From Enchytraeus crypticus (taxonomy: Eukaryota; Annelida; Clitellata; Enchytraeida; Enchytraeidae): a DNA stretch of 64,000 bases. The notes beneath the pieces were generated by a model. The model was not told the DNA's origin. It saw nothing but the letters and a program-made list of their open reading frames with translations, and ran no database searches. A program made the translations under genes and the position numbers. Location: contig CAJHZI010000241.1 in the NCBI GenBank assembly GCA_905160935.1, forward strand, positions 62,001 to 126,000, written 5' to 3'. This document shows positions 2,384 through 63,306 of this stretch, in pieces; the first letter of the stretch is position 1; the number at the start of each line of letters is the position of its first letter.

Positions 2384-5300
2384 ATATAAAAGAAACCCCC
2401 TCAAATGCTTCAAATATTAATTTTTTATTAAAGTATTACTGCGGTAAAGTAGAACATAATAGACATTTGACAAGGGTCAACTTGGTTAAGCGATTGAATA
2501 TTCTTTAGGTATTTTTTAAAATAGACTGTGATTGGAAGTTATTATAAATATGTGCATTGGACCTGAATTTGACAGAATACTAGACCAAGAGAATATATGT
2601 ATTATAAAATGGTTAGTTAGAATTAAGTTTACCAATGTCAGAAAGGGCATTCGGTTGGTGAGCGCCTAGGCCCGAGCGCCTAGGCTCCAGAAATTGCTAC
2701 AAAAATTTAAATAAATTGAAAAGTCTCAACAAGTAGGGGATTGGCTGGTGGTGTGGTGTAGGACAAAGAGGATTTGAGAAGTCTAGTTGTATCCCGACTC
2801 TAGTTAAACTGGGATTCAAGGGGGGGGGGGTGTTGCTACGAGTTAGAAATAAGTTAAAATATGAATTAAATTTTTGTTGCATATATTGTAGAACGGCTAT
2901 CATGAGAAGAGGGAGGTACGACAGTTTCAGTTCACGGCCTGGCCTGACCACGGGGTGCCTGATCACCCCAGCCCTCTCCTGCTGTTCATGAGGAGGGTTA
3001 AGGCCATGACTCCCCCCGATTCTGGGCCAATCGTCTGTCACTGCAGGTAGGCGCTTTGCAAATAATAATCAGAGATATATAAGAAGAAGAAGTTGTAGGA
3101 AACAATACAAAATGTAGCGCTAACCGTATTGCTATCTTGATTTTAATAAAGTAAATTTGCAGATAAATTTTAAGATTTAAAGTTAAATAGTAGGAAAATT
3201 TTAGATAAAACGAATCTAGTAGAAAAATTGTAAAATAAAAGTAAATTAATAGAAAAAATGTAAGATGAAAGTAAATTAGTACAAAAATTGTATGATAGAA
3301 GAATTAGTAGAAAAAGGGTATGATAAAAGTAAATTGTAGAAAAATTGTAAGATAAGAGTAAATTAGTAGAATATTTTTAAGATATGACAAAATAGTAAAC
3401 AGCCTGCAAGTTCAATGGTAAGCATTACTCATATAATTAAAGTAATACTTCTGGTTCAGTGTACTGTACACGATAGTGGGGTTAGTTTCTTAGTACTGGA
3501 TGTTCTTTTGAATGCATTAAGACTGTTACTCTCATGCCCTTTACGCGAGGCACGTATGAAAGTCCTCTAAAAGTTCTCCACACTTACACTCTAGTCTTCT
3601 GTGAGGTAATTCTTTAAAATAGATAAACTTTTCCTGTCGAACTGAAAACATTCCATAGCGCTTAATGTTTTCATGGACGCTGTTATTTCAGCGCTGGAGT
3701 TGGCCGTACGGGAGCGTTTATTGTGATAGACGCCATGTTGGAGAGAATAAAGCACGAGAAGACAGTAGATATCTATGGCCATGTGACGTGTCTGAGAGCT
3801 CAGAGGAACTACATGGTGCAGACAGAGGACCAGTACATCTTCATACACGACGCTCTGCTTGAGGCTGTGCAGTCTGGCAACACGGAGATACCCGCCAGGA
3901 ACCTGTACACCCACATCCAGAAGCTGAGCCAGGTTGAGTATGGCGGGTCAGACACTGGCATGGAGCTGGAGTTCAAGGTCAAGAAGTCATTGATTGATTT
4001 ATTAATACAATCGTTATGTTATAAAGTTCAATCAGTAAGTTGTTGAATAATGTACTGTTATACAATTTCTCTTATACTCATCATCATCATCATCTTCCCT
4101 TGAATCTCACTTTAACAAGGTCGGGATACAAATAGACTGTCTCAAAGCCTCTCTGTCCTTCATCATATCATCAGTCAATCCCCTATTTGAGACTTTTCCA
4201 TAAGTTTAAATTTTTGTTGCAATTTCTGGAGCCTAGGCGCTCACCAACCGAACGCCCTTTCTGACGTTGGTGTGGATCTTAGAGCTTTAGTCGCCTTCTA
4301 CGACACGTGCAGTCTCCAGTTGGCCAATTCTTGAAACATCTCAGACAACACGGGGAAATAATTTTTCGTATACTAATAATAATTAATTAATTAATTTAGT
4401 CAACGTATTAGTTTGTGGGATAAATTTTTTAATTAATTAATAATAATAATAATTACTTATTTATAAAATATAATTAATTAATCATTATTTGAATTAAACA
4501 GCTTAGCAATATGTCATCGTTGTAGTGTTAGATTAGTCGTTAAGCGAGTAATCTACTTTAGTATTCAAGGTTCTGTCAACATTTAATTTAATTAAGTAAG
4601 GTTAAAATAATCTAAGTCGAGAATTTATTGAAACTCTGCATGTATCGGAAGTCAGTAATTTAAAGAATTCATACGTTAATTAATTAATCTATTAGTCAAA
4701 AAACATTAAGTTTTGGACACTGAACCAATGATTGATTAATCCAAGGACTAAGTAGTTGAATATACAAGTTCACCATTTATCGTTCATTTGATCAGCGAGT
4801 TAGAAAGCGAGGATTGTCATGAGTCAATCAGCCAACGAATCATTTAGTCGTACTTAAATGAATTAAGAAGTCAGTAGTAAAGCTGGTAAAGCTAATGCTA
4901 ACGTCATTTTCCTCACTGGAAAGCGATATCACTGACGGGCGAGTCCAGGATTTGAACCCCGCACATAGTGATCCGCGGTCGAGTATCTTACCAACATCGC
5001 CACTGGCTCCAGCCACTGATTCCAGCCAATGATTCGCCACCGGATTTTTTTGTCAATAATGGCTTTAGTAATAATAATTTTGACTATTTCTTTAATTCTG
5101 CTTACAGAAACTGGCTAATCTGAAGGCCAATCCTTCAAAATTCATGAGCGCCAGTTTACCGTGTAACAAATTTAAAAACCGTCTTGTTAACATTCTACCA
5201 TGTAAGTTAAAATAATATTTGTAAAATTTATGTTTGAAACTTAATATACTTATGTATTTATTTAGCTATTTTACTGTTGATATTAAATATTGTTGAATAT

Positions 5301-18956: not shown

Positions 18957-20285
18957 CTTGAAATTGTTGAAGTTGAAATTGTTGAAGTTGAAATTGAAGT
19001 TCTGCCTTGGTTCTTCTAGATCTCTCTGCTGCCTTCGATACAATTGACCATGGCATTCTAATAAATAGGCTTAAATCTTGTTTTGGCATTTCTGATTCTG
19101 CTTTTTCCCTTCTTACATCATATCTCTCATGTCGCACACAATCAGTTGTTATTGGTCAAAATCGCTCTTCTGAACTACCCCTCCTACGCGGTGTTCCTCA
19201 AGGTTCAGTGTTAGGTCCATTGCTCTTCTCTTTATATATCACTCCTCTTAGCTACTTGCTTGCTCAGTCTTCCATAAATTTTCATTTCTATGCAGACGAC
19301 ACTCAACTGTATATTTCCTTTTCTAATCATGATTCCGATCAGAAACTGGCCCATCTCTCATCCATTCTAGACAAGGTTTATTCCTGGTTTTGTGCTAACC
19401 GTCTTGCTGTTAATCCCTCCAAAACTGAATACCTTTTAATTGGCACTCCTGTGCAAAGAAATAAAATTACTAATAATTCTGTTAATTTTCAGAATCTCGC
19501 TCTTTCACCTTCTCGATCCGCCAAAAACCTTGGAGTCATATTTGCTGAAAACCTTGACTTTAAATCCCATATCTCTTCTGTTTGTCGCGCTTCTTTCTTT
19601 CAGATTCGTCAGATTAGGCAAATACGCCCATCCCTTACTAGAAATTCAGCCATTATCCTTGCTAATTCTATAGTTCATTCAAAGCTCGACTACTGTAATT
19701 CATTATTACATTATTACATGGATAGCCTACTTCTTCTCTCAATCGTTTGCAGCACGTCCAAAATTCTCTTGCACGTGTTGTTTGCAAGTCCTCTCGACTT
19801 CAATTTCGCTCTCTTTCTTTACTTCGCAGACTTCACTGGCTCCGTGTTAATCAACGCATAAAATATAAAATAGCTCTATTAACTTTCAAAACTCTGCGAT
19901 TTGGCAAGCCTTCTTACTTATCTGAAATTCTTCTTCCCTATCGTCCCTCACGTTCACTTCGTTCCACCGATGCCAATCTTCTCTCTGTTCCAACGTTCTT
20001 TTTCTTACGCAGCACCCACAAACAGGAACTCTTTACCTGGTAATCTTCGCTCTTGTTCTTCTCTTTCAACATTCTCTAGCAAGCTTAAGACTTACCTTTT
20101 CCCACCGTATACGTAATCAATTTACCCTGACCATTTTTGATCACCGGACTGGCTTTCGTTTAGGACCTTACTTCTCCTCAGCACATTTCTTTTGCAGATT
20201 GGTCTGGGTGAATTGATCTGTAGTGATATGTGCTGTTGGGGACGTCCCTGACATCATCCCTGGATGAGGAAACGGACGTTACACC

Positions 20286-47200: not shown

Positions 47201-47463
47201 TCAAGAATGCAATCTTAGAAATGCATGTGATAGTAAAATGCAAATAATTGTTAGAATATTAGTTAAGCTTTTAGCTGAAGCTCCAGTATTGCTAACAGTG
47301 TCAAGGTCACTCGTGACGTCACTTAACTCGAGATTATTCCTATAAAGATGGCGATAGTGTCCACTATGGGATCCCGGAAACGTATCCGGGTGTCTTCCTT
47401 CACTCAGTTTCACGGAGTACCTGCCGTATGGAAAGGATTGCCGCCATTGGTTACTCCAGCATC
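47201..47463 (-). CDS. Gene Z terminal coding exon with GPI-like tail
   Basis: Acceptor CATTGTTCCAG; stop TGA at 47203-47201. It encodes CWSNQWRQSFPYGRYSVKLS, a hydrophilic Ser/His-rich stretch, small residues NTGASAKS, then the hydrophobic LTNILTIICILLSHAFLRLH and S. The small-residue cluster followed by a short hydrophobic end without a cytoplasmic tail is the GPI-signal layout. Confidence 0.82.
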
Positions 47464-50400
47464 CTGGAACAATGGTAGGCCAGTAAACAAAATAATGAAC
47501 ATTTAATAAATGAAGCTTTGACAAGTTAATAAATGCAAATATGATCAGTTAATAAACCAAAAGAGGGTAATTCAATCAGTGACCCATTTAAAACAAATTT
47601 TAAACTCTAAATTTCAAAATAATTTGCAAGGGAAATTTACAGTGAAAATTAGTGGAAATATTAAAAGCTGACACACTAAATCTATGCATGTAGTGACCCA
47701 AAATTGTGGTTTCTATATATTTTTAATTAGATTATTTATACTTATATTATTTCTTGTTATTTGAAAGAAACTAAGTTAAGACGGATCGGATATTTGAAAA
47801 TAACTTCATCAAGAATAAGGAATTTTAGAATAGCAGAAATAGAAGATTTCGATCTAGAAAATTGTAATAATGGAATTTAAAATATATCTTAGACTCTTCT
47901 TATCATGGATTTAGATCTCGTTTTAAAAGTTAAAGAAGAAATATCTTAAATTAAATTAAAGGTTTTGAATATTTTTATTATAAAAGTGGACAAGAAATTA
48001 GCACATAGTTACATTACTTACATACTGAAAATGCCTACTGGTTAGTACGGCACATGAAGGAAGTAAAAGTACACACATGAATTTTTAAATTACACATCAT
48101 GTTCGTTACCTGTTCGCTGCTCCAATACGAACATTTCTCGAACAAATGAAGTCGTTCCGATGTTACACGAAGGATCCACGGCGAATATTAAAGCACTACC
48201 TTTTCTTTCAAAATACTGCAAACCAAAATAAAATAAATGCTATAATTGCTAATAAGTTAAAAAATTAAAAAAGCAGCCAATTCGCAAGTAAAAAATGCCG
48301 GAATAAATCTTGAGAAATAGTACAACTGATCGCCCTATTGAGGAGTTGCATAAAATTCAATCTATCAATCAATTTATCGACAGTCAATCAATCAATCAGC
48401 CAATAAATCTAATCAATCAATCAGTCAATGTATCCATTACTTAATGCACTTTGTCGGTTATACTTTAATTTTAAAAATGCAAATAACAATCGAACGCAAA
48501 ATGTATTTATTGAATTATTCAGTTATGAAAACATTAAATAATTATTAATCTCTTAATTAATAGTTACCTCCAACAAACTCCTTTTTTTCCGAGCCACTGC
48601 GAAATAGAAAAAATAGTACTGCAAGTGTCTTGTGTGGTAACTTACATATAAGTGGAAGGGCAATTGGACGTCACATTGGAAGGATTATATTGTATTGTAT
48701 TGTACTGTATTGCACTGTATTGTATTGTATTGTATTGCATTGCATTGTATTGTATTATTGTATTGCATTGTATTATATTGTATTAATACTTACGAAACAG
48801 TTTGCTATGCCACTCGGGTCATCGAGAATCCTCGCCACAAGCATTTGTCTTCCGTTCTCCTTCCACTGCTTCACACACTCCAGCTTAAACCCTTCACGCG
48901 CAGAAACAACAAGAAACAACAACAACTATAATGATAAATAACAACAACTCTAATGATAAACAACAACAACTATAATAATAAACAACAACAGCAGCTATAG
49001 TGATAAACAACAACAGCTAATACGGTGCATAACAATAGCTAAAATTATAAACAACAACAGCTATAATGATAAACAACAAGAGCCATAAATATAGCTATAA
49101 ACATCGATATCATTATAGCTGTTGTTGTTTGTCAAAACAACAACAGCTACATTGATAAACAACAACTGCTAATTGCTAGCACAGTAATAGCAGTAGTGCT
49201 AAACTTCAAATAGTAAATTTCAATAATTGATTAATAGCAAAATGCAATTCTATTACAAATACATGTAATTTTAAAAAGCCAAGGAAGTTTTTGCTTATGT
49301 TTGAGACTGAGCAGATCTATATCACATCTACTGTCAGTGATGGTAAATTCGAAACCTAGGTCTCTAAACTAGGAGGCACTTCTACTACCACCAGGCATAG
49401 CATTGTTTAAGGAATTTTAATAGGTGGGAGGGGGGTTGCAGAAAATGGTAGAAGTTATAATGGACTGACTGGGAATGCACATTATGATAAAATTTTAAAA
49501 GACAACAGAGGGTACATCAGTTCTAAAAAGGTCGCTCAAATTTTCTGCCAGTTCCAAATTTTTCACCGTTTTTCAAATTTTTTTCTTCAAAACACAAAGT
49601 ATCAGACTTTTTTGAGGCGCATACGGTCGTTTGTGTGAGTCATTAGGCAGCTGAGACAAATCTCATGGGCTGGGGAGGCCAGCCCCTGACTGGTGGGGGG
49701 GGGGGGGCAATTGACCCCTTCAGGTCCACATGTTAAAGAGGTTATAACCTAAGCAATTCAATGGGTACGCATACAATTAACAATAATTAATACTATAATT
49801 AGACTCTATAATAATTAATGTTATTAACCAAAGTAAAACTTTATATTTGTCTCTGTTATTCCATGAACACGCGTCCTACAACGTACCCGTAAACGATGAG
49901 CAAGAATTGATGACGTGTATAACAGATGTGACGTCACAACCTATGTGTAAAAAACTGTCACACATGTCTGCCGCAGTGTGAATCCGGTAAACTCCCTCTA
50001 GCGGGCAATCAGTGACGTCCATCGACTCAGCTGTTGCATCAATTAACCCAATCAATCAGTAGATCCATAATCTACTAATAGTTTAATATAAACAAATCAT
50101 CACATTGAATCAATTAATCTCTCTCTCTCTCTTAGTGCACTGCCTACTGGCAGGTCCATTGTATATCGTTAGAATGACTCTTCCTTTAGCCAAACCTGCT
50201 TTTTTGTTTTATTTACTCCGTAAAATACAGCTTCTGAATTAGCTTGATATTGCTCTTCACCTACATTGACATAGGCCAATATTCGTACTTGATTAACCTA
50301 ACAATAAATATTTAATTAATTAATATAATAATAATAATTTCATAAAATTTAATAAAATCACAAGAAATAAAATTAAATGAAAGCATAGCAAAGAATATAA

Positions 50401-53400
50401 GATTAAACTACGCGTCTCAACCAATTCAAAGCCACATTATTTTAATTAATAGTATTATTTTCATTACTAAATCCCTACATAAATATCACAAATATTTAGC
50501 ATTTTAATTGTATAATAAAATAATTTTAATTGCAATTATCCCCGTGTTGTGCTCGGGTGTGGTTGGACCACTGCAGAATTGGGCAACCGCAAACAATCTG
50601 CCGCGTGTACGTAAGAGGCGACTAAAGGCAGGAGCTGAGGATGGCAAGTGGGGACCCACCTCACCATGAAATATTTTCCCCAGGATTAAATGGTAATTAA
50701 TCCACCTAACTGAGGAAGGCAACGGGAAACCACCTCAGAAGCCATATTTTCCCAAGCTGTAGGCTACATAAGGTATGGATAAGGCATGGACTTTGTGAAG
50801 GGATTAAACTTGTTGATCTAAGGAGTGCTGTTATGGAGCGAGAAAACAGACTTTGAGTATGAATATGTACCTTGAACCTGCCACTTGACAGTGCACTGAA
50901 AACAGAATTGCAATTATAATAATTATTGATATCGTAAATTTTAAAAACAAACTTCTTCTGAAGAGCAGTCTTCTATTGGAGGAAAGCATTTCTGTATCCA
51001 GACACTGGGCGTCGTCAGGTGAGTTCACAAATTTACCTGCAAATAATAACTGTTACTGTAAATAATTCCATAGATTAATTGATTAAATTAATTATTAATT
51101 AATTCTACTGGATTAATTACTGTCGTCTACATAAGGAAAGGAAAGTATGTACAAAATTATACTTACCCACTACTATATGTTTGGTTTGGCTATTCATAGC
51201 GCACACAGTAAAACTCTAATAAAAGTTTGTATTAAATATACAATATATTTAATAACTGTTTGAATGTCAGTAAAATTAATTTATTGCTTCGAATAGGTTA
51301 AAAATGGTACAATTTAGCGAACCATTGATGGCCAGTATCCCACAAATAGCTCGAGAATCCGAGATAGTAAAATCTCTGACATTCATATAACCGGAAACAT
51401 ACTGCAGATAATTGATTGCTTTTGATTTCAAACTGCTTCACGGATTTAACATGCGGTAGTAAAAGTGCTGGATGTCATCGCTGACGAACTTGCAGTGTAT
51501 AGTGTATTTTTAGAATGATCACTTGCATGATGAAAGAAGGTGCAAATCTTAGCGCAGATGATTAAGTGAATGCAGTGATTAAAGAGGTTTTTTCGAATTC
51601 AAGACAGCCAGTAATGAGCTCTGGAAGTTAGAAAGATCTCAGATCTGCGCTGGTTACCAGGTGCAAAATAGTAATCTAACAATAGCTGTGTGTATTCCTG
51701 AGAGTCGACTAGAGCATATGCGGCATTGGTGAGATGTGCGGACTAGCAATTAAATGTTTAACCACTAGTAATTGGATAATATCAGGCTGGAACCATTGGC
51801 GACATCGGAAGATACTCGAACGCGGATCAGTATGTGCGGGGTTCAACTCCTGGGCTCGTCCGTCACTGACATCGCTTTCGAGTAAGAAAACTGACGTTAA
51901 CCTTAGCTTTTACTAAGTAAGCTAAGTTTACTATATTTATTCTTTACTACTCAAATAGTCAGTTAGGCAGGATTATTTATTTCCTTTATGGTAATTTTTG
52001 TTTGTTTAGTTTATGTTGTGATTTTCATACTGCCATTAATCTGGCGTAATAAGCATTTACGCACTTACGCCTGTATGGAACGTGGACTTTAAGGAATGCA
52101 AATATTCTTCTGAAGCTCTAGAGGTTTGGCTGTGAAGAAGATTGGATTAGAACAGGTAGACTGTTAAAATGTAATTTTTTTATTTCTAAATATATTTTAC
52201 AGGCTACAAAGCTAAAAAAAGGTAATGTTAGCGTCAGTTTCCTCATTCGAAAGCGATGTCAGTGACCGGCGAGTCCAGGATTTGAACTCCGCACATACTG
52301 ATCCGCAGTCGAATATCTTAGCGACATCACCACTGGATCCAGCAACATCGCCATTGGTTCTAGCCACTGTAAATATTATGCTAAGAAGAGAAGATTTGCT
52401 AAAATATGCAGTTGAACGAAGAATGGAAGGAAGGGGAGTGAGTTAGGGGAAGACTGATAATATAATAATTGAAAATTAAATGATAGGTGAGTATTCTTAT
52501 GTAGATATGAAAATAAAGTTAAAGGATAAAATATGTGTAGAAGTTTTATGTCTTAGACCTGACACTAGGCAGTGCACTTGAGAAAGGAAAGAAAAATTCA
52601 AAGCACAGATAAGCATTTAAATAAATTCTCTGCATGATCAAACCTTCATGCAATTCTATGATGTCTTCTTTCCTTTTGAAGAACTTGATACACTGATATC
52701 GTGTGACGCTAAAATAAAACCAGCTATAGATACACAACTGAAGCTCATTCGAATTTCTATATAATAACTTAATAATCGCTAGCTGGAGCCAGTGGCGAAG
52801 TCGGTAAGATACTCGATCGCGGATCAGTTAGTGCGGGTTCAAATTCTGGGCTCGCCTGTCACTGGCATCGCTTTCGAGTGAGGAAACTGACGTTAACCTT
52901 AGCTTTACCAGCTATAGTGAGCAGTCAAATCAATTGTAATACAATTGAGATAAATATTTTAGATTCCCTGCAGTAAATAAAAAAGTTAAACATAAAATAT
53001 GTTGGTCATTACATTTGAAGCTTATCCTAGTGGTATAGCTTGTGTGTAGTGAAAAATGTCGGCAATATCTTCACGGCCGTTAACATGCTAAAAGTTGTTC
53101 TAATTGAAAACATGATCGACAAAGATGTATGCTTTTAACTTCATCGCAAACTTCTTCTATGGGTAGCAATGCACCATCAGCAGGCTTCTTTGAGCTTTCT
53201 TGATTTACGATGATTGCTGAAAGCTTTCAATTGAATGATTGGTAAATTTCAGGAGTGACTATAATGCAAATATAGAAGTGAGAAGATTTGTAACCACGTG
53301 ACAATGATCATTTGATAGTAATTCGTACTTGTTGGATCAGGCTGCTACACCCGATGTGGCTTTTGCTTTCTAAGCTAGACCTACTTGCCCTTTCGTTGTT

Positions 53401-55171
53401 CGCTGAGGCATGCAGCATTGAGCGGAGCTTGAAATTTATTATTAGCTTATTAATTGATTTATCCCCTGTGTTGTGCTTGGGTGTGGTTGGACCACTGCAG
53501 AATAGGGAATCCGCAAACAATCTGCTGCGTGTACGTGAGAGGCGACTAAGGCAGGAGCTGAGGATGTCAAGAGGGGACCCACGTCACCTTGAAATATTTT
53601 CCCCCATGACTAAATGGTAATTATCCATCTAACTGAGGAAGGCTACGGGAAACCATCTCAGAAGTCATACTTTCCCAAGCTATAGACTGCATAATGTATG
53701 GATACGGCATCGACTTTGTGAAGGGATTAACTTGTTGATCTAAGAAGTGCTCTTATGGAGCGAGAAAGCAGACTTTGAGTATGAATATTCACCTTGACCC
53801 TGCCACTTGGCAGTGCACTGAAGAAAGAGAATTGATTGATTGATTGATTGATTGGATGATAGATCGATAGAAGCAACAAAAGAATCGCTGTCACAGAGAT
53901 GTTTGGTAGCTTTACCAGCCATGTGAGACCACGGCGATAGATACGTGCTGAATCAAGGATGTGCTGTTTGGTCTCAAAACCCTCATACATCTGAAAGACT
54001 TTACAAATTCTGCCGGAGAAGTGACATCAGACCTAAAGGAAGCCCTAATGTATGAGTCGTCTCCTATCTCTGCCCGGTATAAGTTACGACCACTTAAATC
54101 TCTCCAGGAGGCTCTTACTATCCACCAGGGGTAGACACAATCTGGTGGAGAGGTCCACTCAAATATGTCTGAAGCATAACATAACGAAATATAACATAAA
54201 AGTCACTAATAAAAATTAAACAATCATTACAGTGAAATGATCACCTATGTTGATATCTATCAATTTTAATACCACATGTTTAAACCGTAAGGCAATTTAG
54301 ATCATTTTAGGTATGACCAGTCCAGTGAATGTCCGAGATTTTACTCTCAGATCAGTGCGGCTGGGATTTTAACTCAAGAGGAAACCACTAAATTATCTCA
54401 GGATCTGTCATTTAAAACTTCACGACGTTACCCCTATTCTATTAAGACATTACTGCAAGGTAACGTAACATAAATTAACTTCAAATAACGTTTCGAAACA
54501 TAACCTAACACCACGTACCGTATCATGGAGTAAAATAACAAATTACGGTAACATAATATAGTATACCTTGAAGTAACTAAATTGAAAAACATAACCCATA
54601 ATAACACAAAAGATTTAACTTATAAATTAAATTCTAACCGCACACTATATAGGCCATAATAACATCAAACCGTATTACAACGTATTACCGCATAACAACA
54701 TTTCATAAGACATACCGACAACATATAGCTTAAAAAGCATACAACAGTGGTCCTAACATAGCATACATGTACGTATACGATATGACCTCCAAGATTTTAC
54801 AAGGTTTATATTAACTGTTATAATCAAGATACCATCAGTATATCTGGTCCAATGTCCTACATAGCAATGAACATAGCTGTACATGTAAGTTACTGCCAGT
54901 CAGACAATTGCAATAATTATGATTTAGTTTCTCCGAGTCCGGATATATTAAACTATCGTTTTACCCTGAGTGAACTCTAGAACCATGGGACCATCTCGCG
55001 GTGAAATAAGACCTCTACAGGAAGAGTCAGCTGACATAGACATGTAGATAACTGTGCCGTGGACTCTGTACATCTGCATTACATTATTATTATTATTAAA
55101 TATTCATATTATTATTATTATTATTATATTACAACAAGCTGTAAATTTTATTATTATTACTATAATTAATA

Positions 55172-55208
<37 letters not shown>

Positions 55209-56638
55209 GCAGAATAAATATTATTATTATTGTTGTTATTATGGTGGAAGTGTTTTCCATGTTTCTGGTTACGTAGGACACTAACAGCGTCCACATAGTG
55301 TTTCTGAACCACATCACGACCGTCACCTAACACGTCAGTGATCTCATTGTCGAGGTTCAACTGTTCACCAGTAATTTGTTCATTGAACTCTTCCAATTCA
55401 GTGTCCTGCAACTCACCGGGCTCGCTTTCCGCAACGCTATAAATCCTTTCCACGATTCCATTAGCCAGTAGTAGTAGTAGTAGTAGCCAGCCTGAGTACC
55501 AGAGGAGCCACCGCATTCGTCAGGCCTCTGTTCCATTGTCCTCTCGTGAGTCCCGTAGTTCTTAGCCTTCACTGTTTTAACGCGCCTCTGGTCGTTGTGA
55601 TATGTAGCGACCCACGTTCGGTTCGTGAAAATTTCATTCATTCTCTTTACCACACTCTCTGACTCTTCAAGCCCTTCGACAGGCTGACTGCTTAAATTTC
55701 TCCGAGGATCGACCAATGTCAGCCTCGATACCTGCCTCTTCCTACTCGAATGGAATTTATTCCTACCATCCCTGGAGGCACCCATGAGGGTCTCGGCCTT
55801 CGAGCATCTAGGGGATATGGCGTTGGTACGTCGTGGAGGACAGGGCTGAGAGGCGGCGGAGAAACGCTCCCTGAGGCTGTAGCCCAGGACTCCCTGTACG
55901 AGACGGCGCAGTGAGATGGGCTTATAACCTCGGCGCACTGACTGAATAGCCTCTGAGTCACTCTCCAACAAACCTAAGGAGCTCTCTTTGTAGATAGCAG
56001 TCACAGTTGGGGTGGAAGTTAAGTCAGAGGTCTTGTAAGGGAGCTGTGCATGTGGGTAGACTGTTGAAGAATGGCGGGGTGAAATTAAATTCTGAGTGTG
56101 AGCCAAGCTGTTGGAGAGAGAAGTAGAACGAATTAGATAATCAGATGCAAGAGTGTTTTCAGTTGTAACATAGCTATCTGTCCGATTTGCACTAAAGGTC
56201 CCCCTTACACAGATGGAATTATATCTCTGTAGGCAGATTGAGAGTCCCTGTCTCAAGAAGCTGGTTTCGCTCTAATCTCCTGTAGCGGCGGATAAATGAT
56301 GACCCAATGAAGAAATAAATTCGTTTCCTTCCTTATTCATAGGACCTAAAGTCTCGAGAGCAAGTGGTATGAAACAATAGCTACGAGACAATTCATGATA
56401 TTTGCTTATTTTTCTGTCGGCGGCTAGTTCAGCATTTATTTATTATTATTATTAATATTATTATTATTATTATCAATATTATTAATATTATTATTATTTT
56501 TTAAATACCCCGGTGTAAAGAACCTGGGGTTTGATAAAAACGATTCAAGCAATACGTGCTGAATCGCCGCCCGGCTACTCGAGGTCATCAATCGGCTTAA
56601 AAGAATTGTTGAAGAAGACTGCAAGATTATTATTGCTA

Positions 56639-56669
<31 letters not shown>

Positions 56670-59292
56670 TATTATTATTACAAGAGCAATACTGCAATAT
56701 GTGAGATCACATAAATAAAGCCAATATGAATATATTACTTTATGAAAAATGAATGATTATCGTATAAATATCGTATTTAAACGAATGGAAAAGTATCAAA
56801 TAGGGGATTGACTGATGATATGATGTTAAACAGAGAGAATTTGAGACAGTCTATTCGCATCCCGAAACTAGTTGAACTGGGATTCAAGGGAAGATGATGA
56901 TGATGAAATGAGTATCGTAATAAATGTGTTTATGTTATAATTTTACTGATAGCGGATGTAGTTGAATGCTTAGGACGTCCCTGGCATCATCTACTGGTCA
57001 AGAACCGGTCGTTGAACTTATATTTATTGGTAGAAATAAACCACTAGTTACAATCTCGGTTAAGATTTACGTAGTTCAACATCATGTTATTCATATCTAA
57101 ACAAAAAAGTAAACAAAAACTAATTTGCATAAGAAATTAGTTTGCGTACATTGGTAGAATGTTTTCAATGTATGGAATATAATAAACTTTGCAAAAATAT
57201 AAAATTTTCAAATGTTGTTTGCTTACCTGTGACACCTTTGAATGTCAAAACTGGCTCTGATTTCGTAAGAAATTGCGTTTCAGTTTTATTAATATCAGTG
57301 ACGGGATGAGACCAAGACATGTTTTGAGTCAAGACAGTCTAGAGACAGTATTTTATTGTCTTGGTCTTGGTCTTGCAAAAACTGTCTTGGTCCCATCACT
57401 GATAATATTGGCATAAAAGATCACAAGATTAGGTAAAGATCCTAAATTGTGCTTTGATGGCGACACTACGCATCGCTTAGTACTCTATCCATGCAGCTAA
57501 ATTAAAGTTAAATCTGTGAAAATAGGAATAAATAAAAATAGGAATAAAGTAAAAATAATAGAAATAACTCATTTAATTAAAACAAATGATCGAGATTTTA
57601 CTCACAGAGCAGCGAAATCTTAGTGATAAATCGCTTAGTGGACCCCGTCTCAATCCTAAAGAGTTAAGGCCAAGAAGTTTAAATATTGTGTAGGATTTTC
57701 CAGCGTCAGTCCATCCACCCACGCATTCCAGGTCCATATCTACAGGAAATGACAAATCAGTCAACAAGTTAAAACTGAACATCAGTATTCATCTGTTGAT
57801 TAGTTTTATGGATTTCCACCATCGAACAGTTTTTGAGCCTGACTCGTTAGCTTATATTTAGTTTGAACAGTGCTCGTTGTTTTCACTCGGGTTGTTGTCG
57901 TTGTTATCACCATTATTGAACAGAAAGAGTTTTGCTAACATTATATGAACTGGCTTCATTAATTATGTTAATTTAGAGTTTATGTTCTTCCGTTTAACCT
58001 ACTGTTGTTGCTTATTTTTGGAGTAGATAAGGAGCAGTCCAGATCAGAAATGAAAGCTTTATCCTGACAGTACCAAGTGTTCGCAACTGAATTTTTATTT
58101 TTCTTCTGGAAGAGAAAACTCATGTCTCAATGCAGTCTCGAATTTTTTAAATAAATTAGTTTAGTTCGTTCCTTACAAATATTTTAAAAACATTCGATAA
58201 TTCTAGAAATTGGTTTTTATTTTCAACCCGCCAGTTTCTGGCCCATTGTTTAGTTCTTAACATGAAAATAGTTAATTGTATAGTTACCAACGATTTTACT
58301 GTATTTAGAAGTGTAATAGAAATTTCTGTAATTCAGACTTGAGTAAACTTTGCTTGATATTAAGTGCATTATACCTCTCACAGAGGTTAGGCTCTTTAAT
58401 GGTAGCTTCGTGATTCTCATGATGATTGTTCTTTCATATGATTGCATGTATATTTCTGTCATTTGTATGATTAATCAGTACCGAGATGAGCAAATAAACG
58501 ACATGATAATTAAACAAAAATTAATAGTATTGAATATTAACAATATTTATTACTAATTTATTTATTTTAACGAATGGAAAAGTCTCAAATAGGGGATTGA
58601 CTGATGGATGATATGATGTAGGACAGAGAGGATTTGAGACAGTCAATTCCTATCCCGACCCTATTTAAACTGGGATTCTAGGGAAATGATGATGAATTAA
58701 TATTGTAGAATATTAGCAATATTTATTACTACTGGTGCGAGAAAGTGTCATAAATGTACAGATACTAAGACAATATTAGCAATTAGACATCAGATCGCAA
58801 TGAGACTGTAACAAACCGTATTCATGAGTATAGGCAGCATCGGGACAGTGGCGAAAGTGGAATCTAAACTGAGATGGATTGGCGCAGGATTTTGCGTGAG
58901 AGAGGGGGTTCCGGCATTCTCCCCCACTGTTATTGGTATAGATGAAATGATATGATGCCGGCAGGAGAGGACAAAGTTGCTCGGGTTCACTTCTCTCTAG
59001 AGCAGATACAAATCACGTGATATTTGTGCAAAATAGTAAGATCTAGACTTACTAAATAGTACAAAAGCTCAGTAGTGATTTTTGTATAAATCAGACGATG
59101 ATAATAATAATAACAACAACAGCAACAACAATAATAATAATAACAATTTAAAAAATAAATAAATATTAATAATAATAATAACAATAATAATAGAGATTTA
59201 AAATAGCGTGTAATGAGATTTCTTTAAATAATATCAAGATTGAGTTTTGAATAAATCTCTCTTTCTCAATCTCTCTTTCCTCTCTTCCGCTC

Positions 59293-59341
<49 letters not shown>

Positions 59342-62300
59342 TCACTATTATGAGCGTCCAATTTTTTTTCAATTTTCATTTTAACCAATTTTAATGTTTC
59401 GGTTTCATTCAACATGCTGATTCTGTGGCAAATCTCATTGTATTTGACGGTCGTCAAAAAAGAGAAGTCATTTTGAAATTAAGTTATCAGACTAAGAGGA
59501 GTTTAAATAATCATATTATACCTCTAATTAAGGTGTGATAAACGTCGCTCGAATGCAGAAATGTACAGATTCTATATAGAGAATCTCTTCCAACGCAAAA
59601 ACCTGCAAAAGATAGTAATTCACACTCAAGACCAAGTAATTAAAATAATAATTGCTATTATCAACATATTATATTCTAGTTAGGTCAGATAATTTAAATG
59701 GGCTGAAAAAATTGGAATTTGTGAAGAATGAACCATAATGATGTTTTAGAAATGCGGTACTTTCGAGTGTACTATTAGGCTCTCCAGCTCGAAATTTCAT
59801 TTGAAAATTTGCCCAACTTATCGGAATAGAGGAAGAATGACAAATACTTTTGAAAATAAAATGCATTTCTAATTAAAAACATTTAAGAAATGCAAGAATT
59901 TCACATTTTTAATATCTTATCTCATACTCTAGTTAGAACAACAACAACAACAACAAAATAGAGAGCTATTGTCGTCAAGGACAACATCGAGCGAAACTAC
60001 TGTATTAACAATAACTACATATTATTTTATACAATCAGTCAATCAATAATCAATAAGAACTTAACGTCCTGTTCCTCGCCATTAGGTAATGTCAGAGACT
60101 GACAGTCACTAATAGTTAGAGACTCGTTGTAATAGACTGACTCGTTACAAGTAACGAGTCAGTCTCTGAAGGAAGGTTGAGGTTATTGTGCCACATATTG
60201 AGAATGCATGAGGATAGATATGCAAAGACTGCGATTAATTGGAAGCCAAATCAAGGAAAAGGAAAAGAGGAAGACACAGAAGTACTTGGTTTAGCATGAT
60301 CCACAAATGTTGAAATGTAGAACACTGAACATTTCTTGGCAAGAAGTTGTGAGGGTTGCTGATGATAGGAATGAATGGAGGAATGTTGCCCCTCTATGTT
60401 CTGTTCAGAACGCAAGGAACTGATGATGATGATGATGATGACGATGATGATGATGATACATGATTGTAAGAGAGCTTCGTTGGCAGCATATATAGCTTCC
60501 ACCCAAGTTTATGCATATAATTTTATGTTTAACAATTATATTTGAATTGTTTGTGAATTAGTTGTCGCTAGAGTTAAATTCATCGTTATAGCCTTTCTTT
60601 GACTTTCAGTTCGTATAAGAATGAAACATAAAATTATGCGCACTTACTTTCCTTGTACTGCAGTATATTGACATGTCGACGCTTGATGTAAAGGCATAAA
60701 TAGCAGACTTCTTTGCTGTTCTCTATTACGTAGAAATCTTCCCTGTTCTCGAAACATTTACCCTTGACCCCAAACTCTGACCCCTTGACCTTGACCTGAC
60801 CCTCTTCTTCGTTTAGCCAATCACCGCGAAGATCTTCGGGAAAGTAACAGAGTCCAACTGCGCAACGATATCGAATTATAATAGTAAATAATAATAATAA
60901 TATCAATAATAATATTGAAGAATAATTGCTACAAAAACTCTAAAAAATGCTAACAAAACTTAAACGAATTGATCAAGTCTATTCATATCCCGACCCTAGT
61001 TAAATTGGGATTTAAGGGATGATGATGATGAATATCGAATAATAATATCAATAATGGAAAATATCACTTAGCATGTGTTATGATGAGCTTAACGTCAGGT
61101 TAATATCTAGAAGGGATACCTGAAACGGGAAAGATTAATTGCATGATTGATTGATGTGAATCTTGTTGACCTATCGATATACAGTTAGAAAATACTCGCG
61201 TACTATGTAACCTTATTCAACTCATGTGTAATAATTCCCGCGTTGTGTCCGGAACAAGAAAAACAGACAAAACGTTAACGGCTCGTGTCGTAAGAGGCGA
61301 CTTAACAAAAAATGAAGAAGGCAACGGAAAACCACTTCAGAAGCCGTATTGTCCCAAGCTATAGTCTGCATTAAACTGATGGTAAGGCTTACCCTCTTGT
61401 GAAGGGATTAATTCGTTAATCGATGGAATGCTCTTTGTGGGGTGTGAAGGCAGAATGTGACTGGGAATATATGCGATAGACCTTCCATTTGTCATAAATC
61501 TTTTACATACCCACGACAAATACATGAGACTCAAGAAACACTAGAGTTTCTTATTTCTCCTACTATAACTTTTCGTCGACTCCTAAGAAATCACGTGCAG
61601 TTAATGGTTTGAATAATGTCAAAATCTGGAGTCAAGTGCGGAAAATTTTGCAGAATCGCCCTTTAACTGACTAACTGGTGACGTCAACCTTTGTTCAGCT
61701 TGATGTACGGCAAGAAAGGGCAACGCTTGACTGATAAGATAAATGATTTAGTCGACTCAAGCTTCCAGTCCCTTCCTGGAAACAGAGAGTTATCGAGGAT
61801 TTACTTTACATTGTGTGTTAATCGCACGACGGATTAGACTGTGGAGGAACCGTACCGAAGCTGGTCTCGATCCAAACACCAAAACCTATGCCAGTAGACA
61901 CTGAAATACTTGAAGACCCCAACCCTGTCCATAAAACTTCGATTTTCTATATTTATTTTTACTGCTATATTACAGTGCTTTGTGGTTACCTGGAGAAGCT
62001 TTCGGTTATCGAGCAGGAAACCTACTGCAGTAAAAAGCTGGTAAACCTAAGGTTAACGTCAGTTTCGTCACTCGAAAACTGTGTCAGTGACAGGCGAGCC
62101 CAGCATTTAAGCCCTGCACATACTGATCCGCGGTCGAGTATCTTATTGACATACTCTTACAGTCGGTAAGATACTCGACGTACATGTAGATGTGTAACCA
62201 AATTATGCTACACAAATACATGTATATAACCAAATGCAACCTCAAATACTAATATAAAATATAAACTGAACAAATAATATTATAAACTGCGATATTCGTT

Positions 62301-62734
62301 TAGATTTCTTGATAGAGAATAGACTTATACAATTTACTAAAACGAATTTAACTAGCGCTTTCGAGCAGGTGCTACGATAGATTAATTAGAGGTGTATATA
62401 CAATTTTATTTATTTGCTTGTATTTCATAAAGATGATTAAAGATAACTCAAGACAAAACTAAAGCCAACTTTGACGTTAGTTCCTATTCCATAGCATGTC
62501 AGTGACATGATGAACACTAGACTTGAACACTGAACCTACTGATCCACTTTCGAACAACTTGTCAAAAAGTCAATATCTCAGCCCAGCTGAGCTAAGTTTA
62601 AGCTACGTTTCCTGTCTGGATAGAATACCAATAACAATAGCAACAACAGTACCGAACTGCAGCTCTCTACCACGACAACATCGAACAATATAAACCAAAA
62701 TCAAACTGAGGATAAGTTGGCTAGGGTGGAACAT
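47201..62734 (-). CDS. Gene Z: cysteine-rich, probably GPI-anchored extracellular protein (12 exons)
   Basis: Exons in transcript order: 62653-62734, 60648-60857, 58817-58996, 57606-57739, 57227-57338, 53916-54168, 52644-52708, 50953-51036, 49887-50030, 48794-48891, 48110-48215, 47201-47463. Splice phases match at all eleven junctions and the total is 1731 nt, giving 576 residues plus TGA. The product has a signal peptide (MFHPSQLILSLILVYIV), then module 1 (CYFPEDLRGDW...KEVCYLC...HVNILQYKE), module 2 (CPL..GGECRNPLSHAKSC...FRHCPDA...LECVGGW...RFRC), module 3 (FEWTSPPDCVYPWW...GC..YQCIKFFKR..IIELHEG) and module 4 (DCPLEGVY...C..GC..INSC...LECVKQW...CFYFERKG). It ends in ILTIICILLSHAFL, like a GPI-anchor signal. 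Sequons NNS, NMS, NKT and NST are present. From memory this resembles the DUF7042-DUF7045 invertebrate family; function is unknown. The first and fifth exons are the least certain. Confidence 0.78.
48110..48215 (-). CDS. Gene Z exon 11
   Basis: Acceptor GGTTTGCAG; donor ACAG|GTAACG. 35 codons: YFERKGSALIFAVDPSCNIG, TTSFVREMFVLEQRT. Phase 0 in, phase 1 out; joining to exon 10 gives NCFYFERKG. Confidence 0.8.
48684..48785 (+). repeat. (TATTG)n tract in gene Z intron
   Basis: TATTGTATTGTATTGCATTG ending ten bases from the exon 10 donor. Confidence 0.9.
48794..48891 (-). CDS. Gene Z exon 10: module 4, second half
   Basis: Acceptor GCGTGAAG; strong donor GTAAGTATT. 32 codons: FKLECVKQWKENGRQMLVAR, ILDDPSGIANCF. 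Phase 1 in, phase 0 out. Alternative acceptors upstream run into an in-frame TGA, so this one is required. Confidence 0.82.
48908..49172 (+). repeat. ~23-bp AACAACAGCTATAATGATAAAC tandem repeat
   Basis: About nine units of ACAACAGCTATAATGATAAA; an inverted unit at 49110-49130 makes a foldback. Lies immediately upstream of gene Z exon 10. Confidence 0.85.
49887..50030 (-). CDS. Gene Z exon 9: module 4, first half
   Basis: Acceptor TGCAACAG; donor ACGG|GTACGT. 47 full codons: ESMDVTDCPLEGVYRIHTAA, DMCDSFLHIGCDVTSVIHVI, NSCSSFT. Four Cys spaced like those of module 2. Phase 1 at both ends. Confidence 0.82.
50122..50165 (-). repeat. LINE 3'-end fragment
   Basis: TTAGTGCACTGCCTACTGGC on the plus strand is the complement of the common LINE/SINE-D 3' end. 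Confidence 0.6.
50536..50897 (+). mobile_element. SINE-D full-length copy in gene Z intron
   Basis: Complete from CCCCGTGTTGTGCTCGGGTG to AACCTGCCACTTGACAGTGC and ACTGAAAACAGAA; ends about 56 bases from exon 8 of gene Z. Confidence 0.88.
50953..51036 (-). CDS. Gene Z exon 8: end of module 3
   Basis: Acceptor TTATTTGCAG; donor AGAA|GTTTGT. It encodes KFVNSPDDAQCLDTEMLSSN then RRLLFRR. Phase 1 at both ends; joining to exon 7 gives ELHEGKFVNS. A SINE-D copy ends about 56 bases further along on the intron side. Confidence 0.7.
51345..51490 (+). mobile_element. SINE-B copy, decayed
   Basis: GAGATAGTAAAATCTCTGAC, ACCGGAAACATAC and AACATGCGGTAGTAAAAGTG match in order. Confidence 0.45.
51786..51912 (+). 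mobile_element. SINE-A copy in gene Z intron
   Basis: GTGCGGGGTTCAACTCCTGG and CTGACGTTAACCTTAGCTTT. Confidence 0.8.
52210..52342 (-). mobile_element. SINE-A copy in gene Z intron
   Basis: Complement of GTGCGGAGTTCAAATCCTGG and CTGACGCTAACATTACC. Confidence 0.8.
52644..52708 (-). CDS. Gene Z exon 7: module 3
   Basis: Acceptor TTTTATTTTAG; donor GAAG|GTTTGA. 21 full codons VTRYQCIKFFKRKEDIIELH plus E; one starting base completes Cys. The YxCxxFxxR..xIEL motif is the most distinctive part of the module. Confidence 0.82.
52781..52913 (+). mobile_element. SINE-A copy in gene Z intron
   Basis: GAGCCAGTGGCGAAGTCGG, GTGCGGGTTCAAATTCTGG, GAAACTGACGTTAACCTTAG. Confidence 0.82.
53459..53828 (+). mobile_element. 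SINE-D full-length copy in gene Z intron
   Basis: Complete from TCCCCTGTGTTGTGCTTGGG to CTGCCACTTGGCAGTGCACT and a (TTGA)n tail; ends about 90 bases from exon 6 of gene Z. Confidence 0.88.
53916..54168 (-). CDS. Gene Z exon 6: module 3 core
   Basis: Acceptor ATGCTTCAG; donor GGCTG|GTAAAG. It encodes IFEWTSPPDCVYPWWIVRAS, WRDLSGRNLYRAEIGDDSYI, FVKSFRCMRVLRPNSTSLIQ, VSIAVVSHG. The split Cys codon (TG|C) is completed by exon 7. 253 nt, phase 1 in, phase 2 out. Sequon NST. Confidence 0.85.
54214..54453 (-). mobile_element. SINE-B copy in gene Z intron
   Basis: GATTTTACTCTCAGATCAGT and AATACCACATGTTTAAACCG on the plus strand; ends about 45 bases from exon 6. Confidence 0.78.
55417..55516 (-). 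CDS. Possible alternative first exon of gene Z with its own signal peptide
   Basis: ATG at 55516-55514 opens MRWLLWYSGWLLLLLLLANG and continues IVERIYSVAESEP. The donor CCCG|GTGAGTTG is strong and phase 1, exactly the phase that exon 6 (53916-54168) needs. The short isoform would be 370 residues, modules 3 and 4 only. An in-frame TGA precedes the ATG. The Leu run comes from a (CTA)n repeat, so chance cannot be excluded. It could also serve as an internal exon from an acceptor at TACTCAG. Confidence 0.45.
55417..56256 (-). CDS. Long unexplained open frame overlapping the alternative exon
   Basis: A 299-codon minus-strand frame (56256 to 55357) is open in a locally GC-rich block. Up to the donor at 55416 it would encode a basic, Ser-rich product with SSRKRQVSRLTLVDPRRN and MNEIFTNRTWVATYHNDQRR, in a different frame from MRWLL. 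A good acceptor (CTGCCTACAG before AGA TAT AAT) fits phase 0. I do not recognise it. It may be an alternative exon of gene Z, a nested gene, or the 5' leader of the alternative transcript. An ORF this long is unlikely by chance. Confidence 0.35.
56779..56911 (+). mobile_element. SINE-C 3' part in gene Z intron
   Basis: AATAGGGGATTGACTGATG, TTTGAGACAGTCTATTCGCA, AAGGGAAGATGATGATGATG. Confidence 0.8.
56973..57030 (+). repeat. LINE-type 3' tail fragment, diverged
   Basis: GACGTCCCTGGCATCATC and ACCGGTCGTTGAACTTATAT. Confidence 0.65.
57227..57338 (-). CDS. Gene Z exon 5: inter-module linker
   Basis: Acceptor GTCTCTAG; strong donor CACAG|GTAAGC. 37 open codons: TVLTQNMSWSHPVTDINKTE, FLTKSEPVLTFKGVT. 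No Cys; sequons NMS and NKT. Phase 0 in and phase 1 out fit both neighbours exactly. Its 5' half lies in one arm of an inverted repeat (57290-57405), so part may be exonised repeat, or the true linker exon may be elsewhere. Confidence 0.5.
57290..57405. repeat. Inverted repeat overlapping gene Z exon 5
   Basis: ATCAGTGACGGGATGAGACC on the left faces TTGGTCCCATCACTGAT on the right, with a (GTCTTG)n spacer. Confidence 0.7.
57606..57739 (-). CDS. Gene Z exon 4: module 2, second half
   Basis: Acceptor TTCCTGTAG; strong donor GTGAGTAAA. It encodes MDLECVGGWTDAGKSYTIFK and ends LSLRFRCS. The ECxxxW...RxRC layout repeats in module 4 (LECVKQW...NCF). Phase 1 in, phase 0 out. Confidence 0.8.
58572..58695 (+). 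mobile_element. SINE-C 3' part in gene Z intron
   Basis: AAATAGGGGATTGACTGATG, ATTTGAGACAGTCAATTCC, AACTGGGATTCTAGGG. Confidence 0.8.
58817..58996 (-). CDS. Gene Z exon 3: module 2, first half
   Basis: Acceptor GCTCTAG; donor GTTTGT. It encodes EPEQLCPLLPASYHFIYTNN, SGGECRNPLSHAKSCANPSQ, FRFHFRHCPDAAYTHEY. Joining to exon 2 gives LQYKEKRSEPEQLCP. 180 nt, phase 1 at both ends. Contains sequon NNS. Confidence 0.85.
59289..59340 (+). repeat. (CT)n tract
   Basis: CTCTCTCTCTCTCTCTCTCT; a second lies at 63546-63600. Confidence 0.95.
60050..60098 (-). repeat. LINE-type 3' tail fragment
   Basis: The plus strand shows AAGAACTTAACGTCCTGTTC, the complement of the shared tail, next to a CAATCAAT run. 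Confidence 0.65.
60134..60165. repeat. Perfect inverted repeat beside LINE relic
   Basis: 15-base arms AGACTGACTCGTTAC / GTAACGAGTCAGTCT around AA, just upstream of the LINE relic at 60171. Confidence 0.9.
60171..60432 (+). pseudogene. Second LINE C-terminal relic
   Basis: Reads LRLLCHILRMHEDRYAKTAI, then shifted frame RKRKRGRHRSTWFSMIHK, stops, then WQEVVRVADDRNEWRNVAPL, CSVQNARN and TGA, followed by a TGA/GAT array. The LRM...KR.GR.R.TW...W.....ADDRNEWR layout is the C-terminus of another non-LTR family. All three frames are used, so it is old. Confidence 0.8.
60648..60857 (-). CDS. Gene Z exon 2: module 1
   Basis: Acceptor TTGCGCAG; donor GTAAGTG. It encodes GLCYFPEDLRGDWLNEEEG, GKCFENREDFYVIE, EVCYLCLYIKRRHVNILQYK. 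Four Cys in a CxFP-GxW-C-CxxC-HxNxLQYKE arrangement. 210 nt, phase 1 at both ends. Confidence 0.85.
60927..61032 (+). mobile_element. SINE-C 3' part in gene Z intron
   Basis: ATTGCTACAAAAACTC, ATCCCGACCCTAGTTAAATT, GGATGATGATGATGA. Confidence 0.75.
61226..61505 (+). mobile_element. SINE-D copy in gene Z intron
   Basis: CCCGCGTTGTGTCCGGAA, GTGTCGTAAGAGGCGACTTA, AGGCAACGGAAAACCACTTC, GTGAAGGGATTAATTCGTTA. Confidence 0.8.
62034..62155 (-). mobile_element. SINE-A copy in gene Z intron
   Basis: Complement of GTGCAGGGCTTAAATGCTGG and CTGACGTTAACCTTAGG. Confidence 0.75.
62463..62600 (-). mobile_element. SINE-A copy, diverged, in gene Z intron
   Basis: ACGTTAGTTCCTATTCC, TGTCAGTGACATG and ACTGATCCACTTTCGA keep the order of the family on the minus strand. 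Confidence 0.5.
62653..62734 (-). CDS. Gene Z exon 1: signal peptide
   Basis: ATG at 62734-62732 opens MFHPSQLILSLILVYIVRCC, a hydrophobic core of about 13 residues. Donor TTCG|GTACTG is phase 1, as exon 2 requires. A shorter donor (GTAGAG, exon end 62671) is also phase 1. An in-frame ATG 8 codons upstream (MCADCKIP) is a possible longer start. The exon was chosen because it is the only signal-like, phase-fitting frame upstream of exon 2 that I found. Confidence 0.5.
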
Positions 62735-63169
62735 TGGAATTTTGCAATCAGCACACATCCGATCATCCAAATGGCTGAGCCCAAATAAACAGAACGTTCT
62801 CACTCGAAATTAAAACGCATACCCCAAGATGGCAAAGTTGACATCGCCAGGGGGTTATGAATGTGTAAGGGTGGCGGAGGGCGTAGAGATAAGACTCCGA
62901 CAAGAGGCCCGCTATGGTCGATTATCCGGTATCGACACTCGATCATTGTATCTGTCCGGATTGCTTTCATCGCCTTCATCATAAACGATGATTTCAATCC
63001 CCTCCCCTCTTTTCTTCCCCTCCCTGTCCATTTTCAAATCACCCTATTGAATTAATAATTTGGTAGCATGGTGCATAAGGGATACCACCTCGCATTCGTC
63101 AGGAATGCAATTGTTATTCAGTTATATACAGTAGAACAACTTGATACTGGCCAACATACAACTTCCAAC

Positions 63170-63306
63170 TGGCTGCAGCCAGTGGCGATGTCGATAAGAT
63201 ATTCTACCGCAGATCAGTAGGTGCGGGGTTCAAATCCTGGGCTCTCCCGTCACTGACATCGCTTTCGAGTGAGGAAACTGACGTTAACATTAGCTTTACC
63301 AGCTTT
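63170..63306 (+). mobile_element. SINE-A copy
   Basis: Complete: TGCAGCCAGTGGCGATGTCG, GTGCGGGGTTCAAATCCTGG, GAAACTGACGTTAACATTAG, TTTACCAGCT. Confidence 0.85.

Follow-up and report, generated by a model that had tools for sequence, protein, structure and literature searches.

Pfam already knows, under the names DUF7044, DUF7042, DUF7043 and DUF7045, a protein family with members in at least one mollusc, one annelid and one nemertean and with no described function; our literature searches returned no paper with the names DUF7042-DUF7045 or the accessions PF23069-PF23073, none on the family with lophotrochozoans, and none on lipocalins with molluscs. Here we describe a member of this family in the annelid Enchytraeus crypticus, encoded on the minus strand of a window (the whole 64,000-nucleotide stretch analysed, positions 62,001 to 126,000 of contig CAJHZI010000241.1) from 62734 (ATG) to 47201 (TGA). 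The relatives in Mytilus, Owenia and Tubulanus resemble the window protein in domain order, cysteines, similar length and a hydrophobic tail, and the Mytilus and Owenia proteins also have the G-x-W and the basic end of its module 1, a part of the protein missing from the Tubulanus record, which lacks the N-terminus. Other comparisons concern fold and anchoring. Lazarillo has one lipocalin domain. PMC10746777 presents it as a lipocalin of locust neurons linked to the surface by glycosylphosphatidylinositol (GPI); if our fold reading holds, both proteins would carry barrels of the lipocalin type tethered by GPI to an invertebrate cell surface, but the window protein has four modules, and no role in axon growth is implied. 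Tp0751 of Treponema pallidum (5jk2), for which PMC5040251 describes a non-canonical lipocalin fold, has a GxW on strand A and a basic residue on strand H, and residues of both kinds are seen here in module 1; it is, however, a single bacterial barrel, and likeness in fold does not establish a common function. The barrels of TbpB and of factor H binding protein differ in belonging to bacterial surface lipoproteins, and the common arrangement may be all that links them to the window protein.

The gene comprises 13 exons, 1791 nt and 597 codons including the stop, with GT..AG boundaries and agreeing phases at all 12 junctions and no stop inside. A sequence-only reading of this DNA had proposed a minus-strand gene of the same extent with twelve exons and 577 codons; the gene and its extent hold, with Pfam, homologues and spliced alignment far above chance, but the homologues demand the longer structure. 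Our own first hand-built chain of 12 exons and 551 codons matched in phase throughout, yet exon 8 and the last part of exon 7 were missing from it, which shows that phase matching alone is no proof of a chain. The missing piece of module 3 is required by the homologues P0001 and P0002, and it is restored by a longer exon 7, reaching 53916, together with a further exon at 52708-52644, the codon split between them being that of a conserved cysteine. Another chain, with a small exon at 48596-48568, was rejected because it broke the frame, and that exon had no counterpart in homologues.

We then aligned the region, with a spliced aligner written for the purpose (GT..AG introns, three phases), to a profile of the seven homologues from which the window protein had been left out. 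Exons 2-12 were returned with identical inner splice sites at two intron penalties, with scores of 728 (penalty -14) and 688 (-18), whereas scores of 51-94 were obtained at penalty -14 with seven controls, namely the opposite strand of the region, two stretches of the minus strand elsewhere, three profiles with shuffled columns and one reversed profile. Micro-exons around exon 5 and elsewhere were spurious products of a weak intron penalty and disappeared under stronger ones. The alignment starts in frame upstream of exon 2, entering a frame free of methionine in place of exon 1, for which there is thus no homology support, and halts within exon 12. Support for exons 1 and 13 is weaker than for the inner exons. 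An in-frame alternative ATG lies at 62758, 24 nt upstream of the model start. Exon 13 is the sole candidate left in the 9 kb downstream when fitting phase, a cysteine near the beginning and hydrophobic residues at the end are all required. For the inner exons the structure is established, its splicing resting on homology and conserved introns.

The Pfam matches of the final spliced protein, read against a cut-off of 27 bits for each of the four models, place the gene in the DUF7044-DUF7042-DUF7043-DUF7045 family at the level of sequence. DUF7042 matches in two stretches with 110.1 bits (E 9e-32), DUF7044 over residues 25-104 with 71.2 bits, and DUF7043 in two stretches with 64.0 bits, best in module 1 (25-96), module 3 alone reaching 32.8 bits. 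Module 4 alone stays below the cut-off for both DUF7045 (17.8 bits) and DUF7042 (19.3 bits), and the low DUF7045 score of this module sets the window protein apart from the Pfam proteins of this group. DUF7045 alone does not decide membership, because the precomputed annotations of P0003 and P0005 also lack it; in P0001 it reaches 28.0 bits over the whole protein, with the best stretch in module 2. The assignment to the DUF7042-DUF7045 group, which the sequence-only reading had made, is thus borne out for three of the four models.

These three domains were already detected with the 551-codon chain, which served as query in the first Pfam scan, the first protein search, the genome search for paralogues and the single-sequence search of the PDB; the final Pfam scan and the comparison of homologues used the protein of the 597-codon model. 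The first protein search returned P0001 (573 aa, E 3.7e-67) and P0002 (375 aa, E 1.0e-45), and a profile search returned six proteins, five of them new, for a total of seven homologues; a profile of seven rows, used in a third search, added no further member. The profile hits include Mytilus californianus LOC127727229, Tubulanus polymorphus LOC141899597 and one Owenia fusiformis protein, and these three, all unnamed or uncharacterized, support a relation to lophotrochozoans. The seven homologues share 24.5-34.8% identity with the window protein (26-29% for the three just named). The cysteine pattern is kept across the modules, with 25 of 29 conserved and 26-29 cysteines in each of the six full-length proteins counted; the records of P0002 and P0004 lack the N-terminus.

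A two-module (A-B), six-exon unit bounded by phase-1 introns was duplicated in tandem to give the body of the protein, as judged from sequence comparison, because modules 1 and 3 and modules 2 and 4 match each other and the intron phases repeat in both halves. In hhalign, module 2 matches module 4 over 95 columns (E 1.2e-10, probability 97%), and for modules 1 and 3 the match covers 42 columns (E 2.2e-5, probability 76%), the remaining four pairs having E values of 0.014 or worse; column shuffles as good as the observed match numbered 0 of 100 for either pair. The phase order 2,1,1 followed by 1,0,1 is found both in modules 3-4 of the window gene and in modules 1-2 of its paralogues. Direct reading of modules 2 and 4 places a phase-1 intron five residues ahead of the cysteine in LEC, a phase-0 intron one residue past the next conserved cysteine, and the closing one, again of phase 1, three residues past VLE. 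The phase-2 intron is not exactly equivalent, lying seven residues before the second cysteine of the pair in module 1 of the paralogues versus six in module 3. The ancient duplication among modules 1-4 that had been suspected, in part from the motifs LECVGGW (module 2) and LECVKQW (module 4), both of them present in the spliced protein, is thereby sharpened to an A-B-A-B order.

The same intron signature extends to other genes of this annelid. In its whole assembly (524 Mb, 802 contigs) ten further loci match at E <=0.0012 (C388, C774, C638, C164, C189, C554, C362, C126, C407 and C556) alongside weaker single matches, the count being a lower bound of at least ten. Seven paralogues could be rebuilt by spliced alignment, with 28.9-39.1% identity to the window protein, towards which the rebuilt residues lean because the profile included it. 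Their introns agree with those of the window gene, in phase and to within two residues in place, in 61 of 80 cases, one matching pair in C388 flanking a three-base artefact exon and being counted twice among the 61. By window intron, the agreement is 7/7 five times, then 6/7, 5/6, 5/6, 6/6 and 3/6; the two outermost introns, which few rebuilds reach, have 0/2 and 0/1. As the aligner was not given the intron places, this agreement supports the splice sites of the window gene. Among the 19 non-matching introns, 13 lie in C774, C638, C164, C554, C362 and C407, and many of these are probably micro-exon artefacts. The other six are one extra phase-2 intron of module 1, found 23 residues ahead of the second intron of the window gene in all six paralogues that cover the place; since exon 2 of the window gene lacks it, the intron was probably lost there. 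Three of the five paralogous loci scanned have a likely final exon, equivalent to exon 13, that ends in a hydrophobic tail (C388, C638 and C164, with a second, weaker candidate at each of the first two); none was found at C774, where 181 bases are left, or at C362. A tree of 15 rows, in which 3 of 12 inner branches are well supported and 7 are open, groups the window gene with C388, C774, C638 and P0002 (100/99) and leaves orthology across phyla unsettled.

Table 1. Exons of the gene in the window, from start to stop codon
Exon	Position	Strand	Length (nt)	Content	Basis
1	62671..62734	-	64	Start codon and signal-like sequence	Start codon, splice site, hydrophobic core
2	60648..60857	-	210	Module 1 (DUF7044), CYFPEDLRGDW entry	Pfam, spliced alignment
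3	59522..59602	-	81	Module 1 end (TLIR)	Spliced alignment; introns on both sides common to 7/7 paralogues
4	58817..58996	-	180	Module 2 (DUF7042) start	Pfam, spliced alignment, paralogue introns
5	57606..57739	-	134	Module 2, LECVGGW	Spliced alignment, paralogue introns
6	54965..55073	-	109	Module 2 end, SADSSCRGL	Spliced alignment, paralogue introns
7	53916..54168	-	253	Module 3 (DUF7043) start, phase-2 end	Pfam, spliced alignment, paralogue introns
8	52644..52708	-	65	YQCIKFFKRKEDIIELHE, module 3	Homologues P0001 and P0002, spliced alignment
9	50953..51036	-	84	Module 3 end	Spliced alignment, paralogue introns
10	49887..50030	-	144	Module 4 start, CPLEGVY	Spliced alignment, paralogue introns
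11	48794..48891	-	98	Module 4, LECVKQW	Spliced alignment
12	48110..48215	-	106	Module 4 end	Spliced alignment up to 48123, inside the exon
13	47201..47463	-	263, including stop	Stalk and hydrophobic GPI-like tail	Phase, early cysteine, hydrophobic end

The introns and the DNA next to the gene hold other sequences. Intron 5 contains a minus-strand open frame of 304 codons from stop to stop (55360-56271) with no Pfam match, perhaps part of a mobile element, and a repeat of about 380 bases has two copies, in intron 9 (50526-50906) and intron 7 (53450-53828), that are 87-93% alike piecewise. Another repeat, of about 100 bases and resembling a short interspersed element by look, occurs five times in both orientations (51809-51910, 52805-52906 and 63196-63297; inverted at 52218-52343 and 62031-62152). 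Elsewhere in the window, the plus strand carries an exon of a protein tyrosine phosphatase (3666-4043; Y_phosphatase, E 1e-18) and a fragment of a retroelement reverse transcriptase (18998-19858; RVT_1, E 2.1e-22).

What kind of protein this gene makes has to be weighed against several alternatives. That the locus is a pseudogene or a chance chain of exons we regard as highly improbable: the first chain did match in phase while incomplete, but the final one has no inner stop in 597 codons, 25 conserved cysteines, intact splice sites and introns conserved in paralogues. Exon 1 has a signal-like start (hydrophobic 11-mer of 3.18, by hydropathy and by eye), and hydropathy finds a hydrophobic tail in the window protein and all seven homologues, so that the signal-like start of the sequence-only reading was recovered together with a hydrophobic end. 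That reading counted four sequons; the spliced protein has two, N140 and N327. In GPI signals a short hydrophobic stretch is followed by only a few more residues before the end of the protein, as it is in the window protein and five homologues, and we infer a protein that is exported, GPI-anchored and glycosylated at up to two sites. The tails of P0001 and P0002 run some ten residues past the hydrophobic stretch, which would suit a secreted protein or one held by a C-terminal transmembrane helix; with the other six proteins ending close after it in GPI-like fashion, such an arrangement seems unlikely, if far from negligible.

The barrel reading comes from predicted models, and no lipocalin model is among the Pfam matches of the final protein. 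Module 1 has both a G-x-W like that of lipocalin SCR1 and a basic residue like that of SCR3, modules 2 and 4 have Y or F where SCR1 has W, and module 3 keeps the W without a constant G; the best structural match of a predicted model of module 3 of P0001 is Tp0751, at 11% identity over the match. The explanation that we prefer, at a probability just short of even, is that of a disulphide-bonded protein exported and held by GPI on a short stalk on the outside of the plasma membrane, in which each of the four modules would fold as a meander beta-barrel of the calycin or lipocalin kind, the conserved G-x-W of module 1 lying on the first strand and the conserved basic residue on the last, as in lipocalins. 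By analogy, the row of barrels would bind an extracellular ligand, which might be a small hydrophobic compound within a barrel or a partner protein held at the barrel rims, and such recognition would be diversified by the divergent paralogues, of which this genome has roughly ten. The same gene and family could instead have modules whose disulphide-rich beta fold is distinct from that of calycins and that serve adhesion or recognition through their surfaces without a pocket, a possibility that deserves real weight although we would not expect it to prove right. It draws on the weak structural matches of a second predicted model and on the absence of a sequence relation to any solved structure (the single-sequence PDB search gave one row, E 0.69, taken as chance, and the search with the seven-row profile gave no match), and likewise on the high cysteine content and the number of divergent paralogues.

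Under the preferred barrel explanation, the protein might bind ligands at the cell surface, as could be expected by analogy with Lazarillo, itself a lipocalin linked to GPI. A broader and more tentative proposal, which we consider conceivable rather than probable, is that DUF7042-7045 represents an unrecognised animal family of GPI-anchored tandem lipocalin-type barrels, built by a six-exon A-B duplication and present in about 11 genes in this genome, that acts as a multi-barrel receptor for small or protein ligands; we know of no described counterpart of such a multi-barrel GPI surface receptor. The corrected exon structure, the A-B-A-B origin with the intron pattern that marks it, and a fold that can be tested provide a first hypothesis for the family; should the barrels bind ligands, these proteins would be a family of surface receptors found in at least one mollusc, one annelid and one nemertean.
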